Source: Mesoplasma sp. JKS002658 (GTDB taxonomy: Bacteria > Bacillota_I > Bacilli_A > Mycoplasmatales > Mycoplasmataceae). From it: a stretch of 64,000 nucleotides of DNA. The position numbers were made by a program, and so were the translations under genes. The stretch covers positions 1-64,000 of the forward strand of contig NZ_JAKNSW010000003.1 in NCBI RefSeq assembly GCF_023566355.1, given 5' to 3'. The notes under the pieces are model-generated. The model did no database searches, was not told where the DNA came from, and saw only the letters and a list, made by a program, of their open reading frames with translations. Positions 4,852 through 36,726 of the stretch are shown one piece after another; position 1 is the first letter of the stretch; each line of letters begins with the position of its first letter.

Positions 4852-7800
4852 ATGACAAAGCAAAAACAAACCAGCAAAAAGGACAAGAAGATTATTATTT
4901 ACTCCTCAACTGCTGCAGGAGTTATCATCATTGGTGGAGCTGTCGGAGCTGGAGTTGGGGTAGCTATTCATAACCGCACCAATCACAATTCAGAAGTCAA
5001 GGAAGAAAATAAGTTTCTCGATAAAGTCGCTAAAGATATTAGCGCTAGTCAAACTTCGCCAATCATGGCGAAGAATAAAGCAATAACTTTTAAAGTCATT
5101 AGCGAACAAGCCGATATCCAGAAAGCTCAAGAACTTGGTTTAACTGCCACTGCTGATCAAAACTTATTTACAGTTTCGCAAATAAATGATGATGGCGAAA
5201 TTCAAGTAACTTCAACAGGAAAATCAGGAAGTGGAGATGTTTTACTTTCCACAGACAATTCTTCAAAAAGTAAAAAGTTAAATGTCTTTGATGGAAATCC
5301 AAAACCTTTGGTGGTGGTTGATGATTGTGATTTTGATGAAGACACTGATCTTGACAAAACCAACTTCACTACCACCCCAAGTGTTGAAAAAACCCAAACA
5401 ATCATCTTAAATAATCCCCAAACCTTCGCTAACCTTCAAGTTGCAGTTTTGAATTCTGATGGCAGCATTGATAGTGGTGGTAGTAATAAAGCTAAAATTG
5501 CGCTTGACTATGATACTGGTAAAATTACTATCAAACCATTAATCCAAGGTGATTTAAGTATCGGAATCTTTGCAGACAACGTTACTGGTACTAAAGAGGG
5601 CAAAACTGCTGCTTGCATCCTCGCTTTATCAGTTCAACCAAAGTTAGATTTAACCCCAATCAGCGGTGATGATAATAGTACAGAAATCAATACCTCACCA
5701 AAACTTGGTGAAACTAGTAAGATTAATATCACTAATGCTGATGACTATGAAAACTTATCTGTAGCTTCAGATCAAACTGATGTTGCAAGAGTCACTAACC
5801 TGACTTATGCAGACGTCACTGATGATAATCAACAAAAGGGGACGCAAAGAAAAACAACAAGAATAGCTACTTTTAATGTTATCCCCACCAATCCAGGAAA
5901 AGCCAATATTATCATTAAAGCTGATAACGCCAATAAACAAATAATTCCGTTTGTTATTCCTTCAAGAATTAATCCTTATTTAGATGATGTGGCACAAGGA
6001 TTTATTACCGGACACACTTGTGATATCAAAATTGATAATTTAAATGATATGGTTAATGTCACTGCTACTTCAAGTGATAATAACGTTTTTAAAGTCGATT
6101 CAATCGATGCTACTAATGAAACGATTAGACTGATTGGCCAAGGTGCTGGAAGTGCTAGTTTGAAAATTGATGCTGCTAACATCACTCAACCCCAAACAAT
6201 TCAACTTCAAGTTGCTGATGATGCTAAATTAGCTAATTTAGACTTAACTACTTTGAACCCAAACTTTATTACAAATCCAAGAGTTGGTGAATCCCAAGCA
6301 ATTATTATCGGAAATCCTAAAACACTAATTAACCTTGGTGCTCAAAGTGATAATCCTGATATTCTCGGAGTAAATGTCGATCAAGATACAGCAACAATTA
6401 ATCTTGTACCGATTGCTCAAGGAACTGCAAACATTACCATTCGTGCTGATGATAGTACTAGTGAAAAAGTTATTGCAATTACTTGTTTACCAAAAGAAGA
6501 TATTGTAATTAATGATGAAGCGAATTTAAACACGACACCTAAAATTGGGGAAAATGTCAAACTTAAAATTGATAATTATGTTGATATTATTAATCCAAAC
6601 ATCCAAACAAGTGATGATAATGTTGCCACAATTACAAATGATCATCAAGGAAATATTACCCTTAATCCGATTAATCCAGGAATCGCTACTTTAATGATTA
6701 GTGGTGATAACATTAACCAAAAGGATCTTGACTTTATTATTCCTGATCGTGTCACCATTGTTTTAGATGATTCTACAACTCCAAAAGGAATGAAGGTTGG
6801 TGCCACCATAACAATTAGTGTTCCTGATTATCAAAACTTAGTCGATCCAAAAGTGACAAGTAGTGATAGTACGATTCTAAGTGTGGAAAGTTATTTTGTT
6901 GATGGTAATACGATTACTATTAAAGGATTGAAACCAGGAGTGGCAAAAGTAATTATTAGTGCTGCTAACATCACAGCCAATAAAGAAGTTAGTTTGACTG
7001 TTGCTACCCCAGTTGATGTTGCTACTCCAAATGAAACCTTAAACTTAAGTCCTGAAATTGGTGAAGACCAAGTAATTACTCTACCCAATTTCAATCAACT
7101 TGTAAATCCTAGAATTACTACCCAACCAAGCAAGGCTTTGAAAGTGACCATTAATCAAGATAGTGGTACAATCATTTTTAAACCATTAATTTCAGGAACA
7201 ATTCAAGCAACTATTACTGCTGATAATGCTATTAATAACTACGAATTTAGTTTAAATGTTCCTGCTAAACATGACATTAGTTTTGAACAAACTCCAATAT
7301 CAAGTTTAAAAATTGGTCAAGTCAACGAATTAAGCATTGCTGATTTTAGTGCGCTAAATTTAATTAATTTACAAATTGAATCATCAAATCAACAAGTAGC
7401 TGATGTTTCTGAAATTGATCGAACAGGAAAATTTAGCATCAGTGCACTTGGATCAGGAACGACCACAATTACTTTAAGTGGAGATAACATTAATTCCACC
7501 TCTTTTACTTTAACTGTTCTTGAAAAAATCAATACAATCATCACTCAAACCAGAAGTGGATTGGTTTTAACTGATGATCGCAAAACCACCACTTTTAGTG
7601 TTGACAACTATCAAGATTTGGTTGATCCAGTAGCTATTAGTAGTGATCCAGACATCCTTAGTGTTGATAGTTCTGATTTAGCAAACGGAGGAATTGTTAG
7701 AGTTACAGCTTTAGGTCTTGGAAGTGCTAGTGTAGTTATTAATAGTAAAAATAGTGCCCAAACCACTAATGTTGCTTTCACAGTTTTACCAGAAACTACT

Positions 7801-10065
7801 GTTGATATTGATACTGATGGAGTAAGTACAAGTCAAAAAGTTAACATCAACCAGATCTTACAAGTCCAAAATTACGCTCAAGAAGTTAACCTTCGGGTAA
7901 CTGGAGATGCAATTGATCGAGGTTTAATTAGTGCAAGTATTGATCAAAACAGCGGAAGAATAAACATTAATCCTTTAAAGGCTGGAACGGCAAACTTTAA
8001 TGTTGAAAGTGATAACTCTAATCTCACTACTCCCACATCATTTTCTTGAACGATTAAGTCCGCTCCCGATGACACTGACTATACTAACCTAGCAAAATCA
8101 ACTTGAATGAAAACTACTAATTTGCCAAGTACTTTGCGATTTGGTGAAAGTGCTACAATCGAAGTTAACACCAGAGTTACAGTTTTTCTTTTCCCTTATG
8201 ATATGCCTGATGCTGATAAGCAAAGTCTTAATATTCTTTCTAATGGAAATGATATTGTTGATGTTCAAAAAGAGATTGATGATAATAACCACTTAATTAC
8301 CTTTACTCTAACAGCTAAAAAAGCAGGGAATGAAATTTTAAAAATTATCTCCTCTGGAATGCTTGGCGAAACATTTGGAATGAATGTTGAAGCCAAACAT
8401 GATTACAACCACGTTTTTGATCGTCTCCAAATTTGAATTGGTAATCAACTTGACTTGAATCTTAATTCAAACGATTATATTAACCTGGTAATTTCTTCAA
8501 CAAATAACGCTGTTATTGAGCCAAAAAAAGATACTAACAAAAATTGATTCCTTGAAGCTACAGGAAGTGGAAAAGCAACCATCAATATCCAAGCTGATAA
8601 TATGAAAAATTCTCGAACCTATGACTTTGAAGTTGCGACAAAAACTGATATTACAATTCCAAGTTTTAATCCTGATTTGAACCCTGATCAAACTAGTGAA
8701 ATCAAATTGGGTAGAGTTGATGATTTAGTTAATCCAGAATTAACTTCTTCAGACACCAACCTTGCTAAAATTAATTTAATTGAACGTGATGGTTGATATT
8801 ATGCTGCTATTAATACTTTTGAGGTTGCAGGTGAAGTTACCTTTAGTTTAACTGCTGATAATATCAATCCTTATCACTTTAAGATGCAAGTAACTTCACT
8901 TGCTCGTGAAGATTTCTTAGCGATGAGTGATAACCTCTTTGCAACCAGTACAGGAGTTTATGATCAAGATGGAAATCTGATTGCTGCTGATGCTTTAAGT
9001 GGGATGAGTAGTGATGAGATTTTAGCGATGAGTGGCAACATTATCGCTACTACTAGAGGAGTTTATAACATCAACGGTCGCCAATTATCCCCATATGTTT
9101 TAAAAGATCTCACTAAAAACGACATTCTTGGCCTTTCTGATACTGTAATCGCCACTACTAAAGGAATTTTTAATCAGCAAGGAGTTGAAATTGCTAAAAG
9201 TCTGACAACTTATAGCAACGACACGATTTATGGAGTTAGTGGTTCAGTCGTAGTCACCCAACAAGGTTTATATAATGATAGTGGCAGTTTATTAAATTCT
9301 TCGGGAGTTACTTTTGATAAAAGTGATATTCTTTCAATTGGTAAATCACTAATTGTAACCACCAAAGGAGTTTTTAGAACCTATAGTTCTTTACTTTTCC
9401 CTGCTGAACTTTATTACTACTCTCAAAAACTTCGAGGGTTAACTGCTGATGATATCTTGATGGTTGGTAATTCTGCTGTAGCAACAACAAAAGGAATTTA
9501 TAATACTCAAGATCAACAAGTTATGTCTCTAGAACTGGGGAAACCAACTGCTGATGATATCTGGGCATTAAGTGACAAAATCATCACTACTAGCAAAGGA
9601 GTCTATCAAACCAGCACTAGTTGACTTGGTTTCTCGATTCCTATCAGACCTTTAAGAGGCTTGCAAAAATCAGAATATCTTGGTCAAGGAAACAATATTA
9701 TTGCCACAACAAAAGGGGTTTATAACTATGATGGAGAGCAGTTGGGAGGCGATGCCTTGGTAGGATTAACCACTGCTGATATTCTTGCTATTAGTGATAA
9801 TTTCATTGTGACCACAAAAGGAGTCTACAATCTTGATAACCATTTGGTTGGTGGAAGTGTTTTAATTGGTTTAACTCTTGATGACATCATCAGCGTTCAG
9901 AACAACATTATTGCCACAACAAAAGGGGTTTATAACTATAATGGAGAGCAGTTGGGCGGAACCACTTTGGTTGGAATTAATTCTGATCAAGTTTATGGAG
10001 TTACAAACAACTTTATCGTGACTGCCTTTGGAACGTGAACTAGCGAAAATAAACGTTTAATTTAA
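4852..10065 (+). CDS. 1737-aa repeat-built surface protein (Ig-like repeats plus KGVYN repeats)
   Basis: The largest gene in the window. Residues 1-15 are Lys/Gln-rich and cytoplasmic, and residues ~17-40 form a Gly/Ala/Val membrane anchor. From ~residue 150 to ~1340 there are about a dozen Ig-like repeats of 80-95 residues. Each has a start like 'P-x-I/V-G-E', a middle 'VDP/VNP-x-ITSSD', and an end like 'G-x-A-x-ITIxADN', as in bacterial BIG_2-type domains. From residue 1345 there are about ten repeats of ~37 residues centred on IIATTKGVYN-x-x-G. Several TGA Trp codons occur and all segments share one frame. It has its own promoter and terminator. A role in adhesion or immune variation is inferred from architecture only. 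Confidence 0.88.
5300..8880 (+). repeat. Ig-like (BIG_2-type) domain repeats within the surface protein
   Basis: About twelve diverged copies of an 80-95-residue unit; each carries a recognisable 'NPKxTSSD...ITIKPLxxGxAxITIxADN' pattern. They are diverged at DNA level, so recent copy-number change is not evident here. Boundaries are approximate. Confidence 0.75.
8884..10040 (+). repeat. About ten 37-residue 'TTKGVYN' repeats
   Basis: Tandem units with the core I-x-T-T-K-G-V-Y-N, a polar turn, then L-x-G-L-T-x-D-D-I-L-A-x-S-x-N. The units near 9690-9800 and 9900-9980 are almost identical at DNA level (for example ATTATTGCCACAACAAAAGG at both 9697 and 9907), which shows recent duplication or conversion. 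The short beta-rich unit would suit a propeller-like fold; that is inference. Confidence 0.75.
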
Positions 10066-11937: not shown

Positions 11938-12084
11938 CGAAAAAATCGATCTGAAGGATTGAATATCAATACCAACAAATCGATTCTCCGTCAGTTCTCG
12001 GCCTAACACTTACAAGTAAGTGCTTACGGACAGCAAGAGATTACCAGGAACAGGTTTCTTGTTCCAACTGACGTCCTATATATA
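11938..12084 (-). ncRNA. Structured RNA unit A (three-way junction plus terminator)
   Basis: On the minus strand a -10-like TATATA (within 12077-12084) is followed by an outer stem (arms at 12066-12073 and 11989-11996, 8 bp perfect). The stem encloses hairpin 1 (GGAACA/TGTTCC, 12047-12065), a linker TGGTAATCTCTTG, hairpin 2 (CACTTAC/GTAAGTG, 12007-12022) and the block GGCCGAG. An intrinsic terminator follows (AATCGAT/ATCGATT arms at 11979-11985 and 11944-11950, then TTTT). Every element has a counterpart in unit B. The promoter overlaps the end of the DUF3800 gene. The RNA class is not one I recognise. Confidence 0.65.
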
Positions 12085-13000
12085 TTAACATTTTTTGCAG
12101 CATCTTTCTTCATTATTAACAATATTGAATTGTTTAAACTTTGGAAATACGTAAGTAAGAATATTAGTTTTCTCCGAAGAAAAATACTTGAGCGTTTCAT
12201 CAATAGTCAAATTTTTATTTAAAATTTTGAAGGTTAAATTAGCAGTAATATCAGCCATTTGAATCGGGAAAGAATGTTCTGATTTTAAATATTTTAAATT
12301 TTTAATCTTCAATTCGGCATCTCTTAATTGACAAATCAAAAGATTAAAATTATAGTAATTTTTCTTTTCTTGATCAGAATTATCTTCAGTTCCTTTGATA
12401 GTAGAAAAAGCATTTTTTTCTTGCATAAGAAAGTTTTTTAATTGCTTTTCTTTAAAATTTTTTTTCAAATTATCATCAGTTTCTTCGTCTAAATATATAT
12501 TAACTATAGAATCATGAACAATAATTTTCTTATCAAGTAGAGTTTTAAGAATTGTTAAAATAAGGATGCTTTTTTTAAACAAATCATTTACTGTCCAATC
12601 ATAGACAAAGTGCTTTGCTGAATACTCTTTGCATCAACTAACGCTACCAAAATACAAAGAGTTGTTTATACATTTTAAGAAGTTATTATATTTTCTCAAC
12701 ACATTCTTGTTATTGCTTTTAATTAACTCTGTATATTTTTTAGAAAGTTCATTTCCTTTAATCGGTTCACCAAGTCAATCATTTCATTTTTTAATTTCTG
12801 ACTTGTCATACTTTTTCTTTAAAGTTTTTTTTCTTTTTGAAGCTCAAGAATTTCCTAAGTTGAGAGGAATAAAAAATAAAATTTGAATTAAAATTATCTC
12901 TTTGTTCTTTATCAAATACTAAGTACGAATAAATAACATGACCATCAATTCCTGTTCGAAATTTTCCAGAATCATCAATGTAAATATAATATTTAGCCAT
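12085..13000 (-). pseudogene. DUF3800 protein, interrupted by a frameshift
   Basis: The start, MAKYYIYIDDSGKFRTG, is the DUF3800 N-terminus (Y-x-D-E/D-S-G). This frame stops after about 75 residues. A second minus-strand frame overlaps it from about 12890 and runs to the TAA at 12085, with LKKKYDKSEIKKWNDWLGEP, KEYSAKHFVYDW and a QLRDAELKI...SFPIQMADITAN region. The 'QMAD' segment near the C-terminus is also typical of DUF3800. The total span, 916 nt, is not a multiple of three. The shift lies between about 12820 and 12880, where there are runs of A/T. It could be true decay, a sequencing slip or slippage-based expression. The 5' end overlaps the HNH stop by 8 nt. Members are often found near mobile or defence genes; their biochemical role is unsettled. 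Confidence 0.72.
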
Positions 13001-13298
13001 TGCTCTTTTTATTATTGCAGGTAGTATGCATCGGAAACAAATTCATTAAATTATTATTCTTGGAATTGTTATCTCAATGATCAATATTCCAAGATCCGGG
13101 TTGTCCCGATTGAAAACCCTCGTATTGTGCTTTTAACATTATTTTTTTGCAACGTGGACAGGGTGCTTTTTGTTTTCAATCTCAATCTAAATTCGATAAA
13201 TATTCTTCATTGAAACGAATTCACATTTTATTATCAATATAATCTTTTCAAATCAAATTTCGTTCTGGTTTTGCTCACGAACCTCTTTTATCTGCCAT
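12993..13298 (-). CDS. Small HNH-type nuclease-like protein
   Basis: A 101-aa protein with the layout of an HNH/zinc-finger nuclease: CPRCKK near residue 48 (first Cys pair), WNIDHWDNNSKNN near 70 (the D-H of the first catalytic strand), and NLFPMHTTCNNKKSNG at the end (H-x-x-C-N-x-x-K). It is very Trp-rich, with several Trp codons written TGA, and it has no other domain. A GAAGGAG ribosome site precedes ATG 13298. It overlaps the DUF3800 start by 8 nt (ATGGCTAA), so the two genes are translationally coupled. Unit B with its terminator lies about 80 nt upstream. A nuclease role is inferred from the motif; the target is unknown. Confidence 0.75.
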
Positions 13299-13380
13299 TA
13301 ATTTCTCCTTCTCATAGTGTACGAATAAAAGTTAAGTTATTCCTATTTTATATTATTATCTTTTCAGTTAAATTATGAAT

Positions 13381-13530
13381 TAAAAAACAGATATAATCGA
13401 ACTTTTGATGAATCGAGTATATCTGTTCCGCATTAGAACTCGGCCCTCAATTTTGAAATTGTTAGGGGATACAAGAGCATTGCCATAATCTTATTTATAA
13501 GACTTAAACTAACCGCTATTGATAATACTA
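13381..13530 (-). ncRNA. Structured RNA unit B (three-way junction plus terminator)
   Basis: Minus strand. A -10-like TATTAT (13522-13527) in AAATGTTAGTATTAT precedes an outer stem (arms about 13509-13516 and 13429-13436, 7 bp with one bulge). The stem encloses hairpin 1 (CTTAT/ATAAG, 13490-13501), linker TGGCAATGCTCTTG, hairpin 2 (CAATTT/AAATTG inside CCC/GGG, 13444-13468) and the block GGCCGAG. A 9-bp terminator (ACAGATATA/TATATCTGT, 13387-13426) with six T follows. Linker and GGCCGAG blocks match unit A while the stems differ in sequence yet still pair, which is the pattern of a conserved RNA fold. It starts 5-20 nt after the AbiH-like gene. Confidence 0.68.
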
Positions 13531-36611: not shown

Positions 36612-36690
36612 CACAAAAGAAAAACCACTATACAAGACGCTTTTCTTTATAGCTGCTACCTTCCGGTCCTGACTAGATTCAGATGCAATC
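36612..36690 (-). ncRNA. ffs: Signal recognition particle 4.5S RNA
   Basis: On the minus strand the sequence contains the SRP domain IV core, TCAGGACCGGAAGGTAGCAG, with flanking bases that can close the hairpin (the Ffh-binding symmetric loop and the GGAA tetraloop). A TATAAA-like -10 lies just upstream (plus 36690-36700) and a U-rich end at about 36612-36624. Ends are approximate. It lies between tadA and serS, a typical position near dnaX. Confidence 0.9.
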
Positions 36691-36726
36691 TTTATAATGG
36701 CAACATTATTTTATCATTAATTCTAC

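Follow-up and report, generated by a model that had tools for sequence, protein, structure and literature searches.

We found two related, probably independent structured RNAs, units A and B, on the minus strand of a defence-type island in Mesoplasma sp. JKS002658, in agreement with a sequence-only reading of the same DNA, and neither of them matches an Rfam family. The analysed DNA is a stretch of 64,000 nucleotides (contig NZ_JAKNSW010000003.1, positions 1 to 64,000), referred to below as the window. We interpret A and B as paralogous free-standing small RNAs that belong to a new class of the DUF3800-associated kind and would mainly hold the nuclease in check. The probability of this whole statement is put at about 0.5, mostly for the class and less for the inhibitor role.

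Structure and relationship of units A and B

The two units flank a gene pair, at the place and on the strand where they had been noticed before (Table 1). From lysS to rpsF the gene order is an AbiH-like gene, unit B, a gene for an HNH-like protein of 101 aa, the DUF3800 gene, unit A and rpsF. Common to both units are the blocks TGGYAAT(N)CTCTTG and GGCCGAG, two hairpins within a closing stem, and a terminator that follows downstream; each core has about 90 nt, and with the terminator the length is about 130–140 nt. An extended -10-like TGTTARTAT stands before each unit, where the preceding gene ends. The promoter that had been proposed at this position is confirmed as a sequence present at both units, but it is an extended -10 only, and that of unit A was absent from the list of a sigma-70 scan.

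Table 1. Positions of the RNA units, their parts and the neighbouring genes in the window
Feature	Position	Strand	Basis or remark
Unit A, promoter-like TGTTAATAT, extended -10, overlaps DUF3800 stop codon	12090-12082	minus	sequence
Unit A, RNA core: outer stem, hairpin 1, linker TGGTAATCTCTTG, hairpin 2, GGCCGAG, closing strand	11988..12075	minus	sequence, fold
Unit A, outer stem CGTCAGTT/AACTGACG	12073-12066/11996-11989	minus	sequence
Unit A, hairpin 1, GGAAC..GTTCC		minus	sequence
Unit A, linker TGGTAATCTCTTG	12046-12034	minus	sequence
Unit A, hairpin 2, CACTTACTTGTAAGTG	12022-12007	minus	sequence
Unit A, GGCCGAG block	12003-11997	minus	sequence
Unit A, terminator hairpin and T run	11938..11988	minus	fold; terminator-like site also listed at 11952-11934
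Unit B, promoter-like TGTTAGTAT, directly behind AbiH-like gene	13533-13525	minus	sequence
Unit B, RNA core, same element order as unit A	13430..13516	minus	sequence; best non-self match of the A-only model
Unit B, outer stem GCgGTTAG/CTAATGC, one bulge		minus	sequence
Unit B, hairpin 1, AGTC..GATT		minus	sequence
Unit B, linker TGGCAATGCTCTTG	13485-13472	minus	sequence
Unit B, hairpin 2, CAATTTCAAAATTG	13461-13448	minus	sequence
Unit B, GGCCGAG block	13445-13439	minus	sequence
Unit B, terminator hairpin and T run	13382..13430	minus	fold
DUF3800 gene, downstream frame, most of the domain	12085..12915	minus	22 bits against PF12686, cut-off 21
DUF3800 gene, upstream frame, MAKYYIYIDDSGK..	12791..13000	minus	30.4 bits together with the downstream frame
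Short HNH-type protein, 101 aa, overlaps DUF3800 start codon	12993..13298	minus	Pfam HNH 14 bits, below cut-off; relatives in mollicutes
AbiH-like gene, 417 aa	13535..14788	minus	Pfam 26.9 against cut-off 30.9, below

We take units A and B as related, with support that is good but not final. The nhmmer comparison of A with B gave E 2.7, and therefore sequence alone is insufficient to prove their homology. When a covariance model was derived from A only, B was its top non-self match in the window, although weakly (15.1 bits, E 0.09; the next match had 13.1 bits), and by our own scaling to 1.5 kb and one strand the E for B is about 0.001. A model hit at unit A had 99.5 bits, a value given by construction.

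Compared with dinucleotide shuffles, the whole units had z values of -4.4 (A) and -2.8 (B), but the core of unit B alone folded no better than shuffles (z 0.12), so that much of the whole-unit fold signal comes from the terminator. RNAalifold on the sequence-only alignment gave z -2.2 with 37 of 1000 column shuffles as good, which is modest support from two sequences; the structure-guided hand alignment reached z -6.1 with none of 1000 column shuffles as good, a result that fitting by hand biases in favour of the fold. In that alignment the pairs compensated by changes on both sides were one in the outer stem (C-G to U-A), two in hairpin 1 (G-C to A-U and A-U to U-A) and one in hairpin 2 (C-G to A-U). 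Covariation is thin since two sequences only are compared. For the conserved middle, one RNAalifold alternative is a small hairpin GYAA/UUGY with CUC in the loop, and another is a helix UGGY/GCCG that joins both conserved blocks; the loop CUC could also pair with GAG of GGCCGAG. Any of these three pairings would account for the conservation of the blocks.

Through cmscan against all 4227 Rfam families, up to E 10 on the two short stretches, neither unit gave a match, and the Rfam check proposed with the sequence-only reading is thereby answered. The exact block pattern occurs in the source genome at A and B only. In 319 other genomes of the order it was found at three unrelated sites and no true copy, and the sites found in about 85,000 sets of genome contigs and in viral contigs all look chance-like, mostly coding. 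Matches in L003 and L005 were rejected as their sequence reads as coding, and that in L004 as a purine-riboswitch-like leader with terminator (around 1501-1538, before guaA in G202). Model R1, built from both units, revealed nothing convincing among genomes of the family (60), the order (317) and the class (395); its matches there reached about 23 bits at most, lacked the GGCCGAG block and were taken as chance. The large searches used strict filters, and weak copies were possibly lost. The further copies expected beside HNH/DUF3800 or AbiH genes were found neither by the two-sequence covariance model nor by the block pattern, and by these searches the sequence class seems so far unique to the source genome.

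It is very improbable that the likeness of A and B is a coincidence of two unrelated terminators with short upstream hairpins: the nhmmer result and the shuffle-like fold of the B core would fit this, but two exact blocks stand in the same order and spacing on the same strand 1.4 kb apart, the A-only model ranks B top, and in the 319 other genomes of the order the block pattern gave just the three sites, a count that favours A and B as the pattern was derived from them.

Neighbouring genes and DUF3800-I RNAs in related genomes

The two frames of the DUF3800 gene read together scored 30.4 bits and covered profile positions 1-147 of 149. However, the gene is frame-broken: it is split over two frames, with an A8 run (12832-12825, minus strand) in the frame overlap, and the system may therefore be dead in this assembly. 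Of the supposed nuclease pair, the DUF3800 member lies above the PF12686 cut-off but is broken, and the HNH member is sub-threshold. DUF3800 genes with internal stops or frame changes were also seen in other mollicutes (L054, L077, L087 and L093).

Relatives of the HNH gene occur elsewhere without DUF3800. A close relative of the 101-aa protein is located on a Spiroplasma corruscae plasmid (L006, 6001-6312), beside ssb and mobL and without DUF3800, and it was the only relative of the DUF3800, HNH and AbiH-like genes found in plasmids, phages and viral contigs; the plasmid collection contained no relative of the AbiH-like gene. No match was obtained with PADLOC and NCBIfam. In the one other genome of the genus that was compared, rpsF is preceded by a different gene, helicase-like by motifs, and the A/B locus is therefore a variable island. 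Elsewhere in the window we observed a very long ORF (4852-10065, 1737 aa), in which Ig-like segments recur and which probably encodes a surface protein, and a bacterial small SRP RNA (36612-36708, minus strand; Rfam RF00169, 49.8 bits).

Structured small RNAs, among them Rfam DUF3800-I (RF02969) and DUF3800-IX (RF02968), are known companions of DUF3800 genes (PMC11701678, PMC10910872), and DUF3800 has an RNase H fold, is associated with ncRNAs and is tied to some Cas12/Cas13 loci (PMC10910872, PMC12669027). Our literature search found no biochemical work on DUF3800 RNAs and no paper working out their role. Reportedly, DUF3800-I and DUF3800-IX RNAs go back to Weinberg et al. 2017. A DUF3800 match was present in 20 of the 60 family genomes, and DUF3800-I RNAs in 32 of the 317 genomes of the order; these RNAs often adjoin a DUF3800 gene on its upstream or downstream side, have a terminator to themselves and are located in mobile or defence islands. 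The RNA adjoins DUF3800 before the gene in G152 and G183 and behind it in G206 and G173; G154 and G155 are two more adjoining cases, judged by eye, which match model R3 (built from 20 mollicute DUF3800-I cores), but that model was built with them. Among 46 stretches fetched from the order, 18 had a DUF3800 reading frame near the DUF3800-I RNA, before or after it.

Copies of DUF3800-I lie inside stretches of 7-11 kb that are present two or three times per genome with 98-100% identity (L118/L119, L120/L121/L122, L123/L124), so these RNAs travel on mobile elements. Others stand beside AbiEii, Fic and Panacea genes (among L088, L069, L073, L106 and L090; the Panacea likeness in L073 is by eye only), and from these neighbours and the duplicated stretches the defence island is taken as the usual DUF3800-I setting. 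A Cas9-like reading frame, recognised by motif only, was also seen beside a DUF3800-I RNA in this group. In G208 (L090) the RNA is directly behind lysS, which is also a neighbour in this window. G033 contains five tandem free-standing DUF3800-I units with no DUF3800 gene beside them (L095, 2427-3347; G033:C1:718426-719346). They share the outer stem and the terminator and diverge in hairpin 1; an AT-rich promoter-like stretch is upstream of each, and an IS3-type transposase fragment is nearby.

Comparison with known RNAs

DUF3800-linked small RNAs are thus already known from bacterial defence regions, and A and B look like a new version of them. The earlier opinion that no RNA class is described fails in the wider sense, as DUF3800-associated RNAs are described and adjoin DUF3800 genes in related genomes. 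Like DUF3800-I, A and B are small RNAs beside a DUF3800 gene, in several copies per genome and in mollicutes; their hairpins are enclosed by an outer stem, UAA immediately precedes the last hairpin, and the terminator is separate. However, DUF3800-I has no long conserved linker or GGCCGAG block of the A/B type, and A and B have no DUF3800-I core TTAAGCG..TGTAAG. Neither A nor B matched RF02969 (gathering cut-off 44.2 bits; cmscan up to E 10), whose best place in the source genome was a 17-bit site away from both, and neither matched model R3; membership as diverged DUF3800-I RNAs was therefore rejected. Because the layout is shared but the DUF3800-I model failed, we regard A and B as a separate sequence class of the DUF3800-associated kind. 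Other DUF3800 RNAs, such as DUF3800-IX (RF02968), are like A and B by neighbourhood, and cmscan gave no match to them.

As to neighbourhood, in this one locus the DUF3800 stop codon is where A starts, while B lies on the upstream side, separated from the DUF3800 start by a single short gene; terminator hairpins and T runs were found at both units, and the promoter was missed by the scan. Since RF02969 and R3 were unmatched, the link of A and B to DUF3800 rests on this locus and the layout analogy. With the type III RNA antitoxins of ToxIN, A and B may be compared in manner of working only, as a structured RNA with terminator beside a nuclease gene. In contrast to them, A and B each stand singly, no tandem repeats precede an endoribonuclease gene, and the neighbour is DUF3800/HNH, with DUF3800 not a ToxN relative by Pfam name; the tandem repeats and cognate ToxN-type endoribonuclease that define type III toxin-antitoxin RNAs were found at neither unit.

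Proposed role and alternative readings

Under the preferred reading, transcription would start from the TGTTARTAT elements, and each RNA would run from right behind a gene (DUF3800 for A, the AbiH-like gene for B) to its own terminator. The folded RNA would bind the DUF3800 RNase-H-fold protein and mainly restrain the nuclease, either as its RNA antitoxin or as a partner that inhibits it, within a cassette for defence or addiction, and would not be an aiming guide. Directly observed are the blocks and layout in common, the neighbourhood and the analogous DUF3800-I arrangement in related genomes; unit A at the DUF3800 stop codon corresponds to G206, where the DUF3800-I RNA follows the gene. The inhibitor role is suggested because RNAs are kept where DUF3800 is broken (G173, G315 and the source genome) or not adjacent (G033), and because variation is mainly in paired arms and loops, with no guide-like stretch. 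Gene decay with the RNA kept would, however, also fit a chance order of decay, and the position of B behind the AbiH-like gene, one gene off DUF3800, speaks against the preferred reading. In a more specific form, which we hold to be doubtful, A and B would be two diverged RNA partners of one HNH/DUF3800 nuclease pair, and the locus a new class of defence cassette with a nuclease under RNA control; the protein would recognise the RNA by its fold, with conserved CUCUUG and GGCCGAG possibly pairing elsewhere in it.

It is unlikely that A and B are guides or scaffolds that form with DUF3800, and perhaps HNH, an OMEGA-type nucleoprotein attacking foreign nucleic acid. The RNase-H-fold protein is tied to ncRNAs and some Cas12/Cas13 loci (PMC10910872, PMC12669027) and the HNH gene overlaps the DUF3800 start, but HNH relatives are found without DUF3800, and the five tandem G033 units differ mainly in the hairpin-1 arm. 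Between A and B we found no variable unpaired stretch inside a constant frame, and the guide role considered in the sequence-only reading is therefore unsupported.

Similarly improbable is that unit B, and A by copying, belongs to the AbiH-like gene as a cassette of gene and downstream RNA, in another abortive-infection module: the start of B directly follows the AbiH-like stop codon, but A sits behind DUF3800, and to our knowledge no RNA partner of AbiH has been described.

Cis-acting leaders or attenuators, B for HNH/DUF3800 and A for rpsF, are still less probable. The terminator of each unit is followed by a gene on the same strand, but rpsF has its own strong promoter behind unit A (TGCTATAAT, TTAAAA-17-TATAAT preceded by TG, 11913-11885), a weaker promoter-like site (13379-13352) separates B from HNH, the genes HNH and rpsF share nothing that would call for common regulation, and none like A and B was found elsewhere by model or Rfam, with no Rfam leader match at either unit. 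Since both units are closed by terminators of their own and rpsF has a separate promoter, we do not favour the attenuator that had also been suggested. Pairing of the linker with neighbouring translation starts was inconsistent: by duplex energy the DUF3800 start ranked third of about 48 for B and 40th for A.

Taken as a new class of DUF3800-associated RNA, A and B suggest a greater sequence diversity of DUF3800 RNAs than the Rfam models cover. This compact mollicute locus, in which a single nuclease gene lies between two diverged RNAs, would allow a direct test of whether such RNAs inhibit or direct the nuclease, and the relatives in which RNAs are arrayed in tandem and nuclease genes are broken add to the same test.
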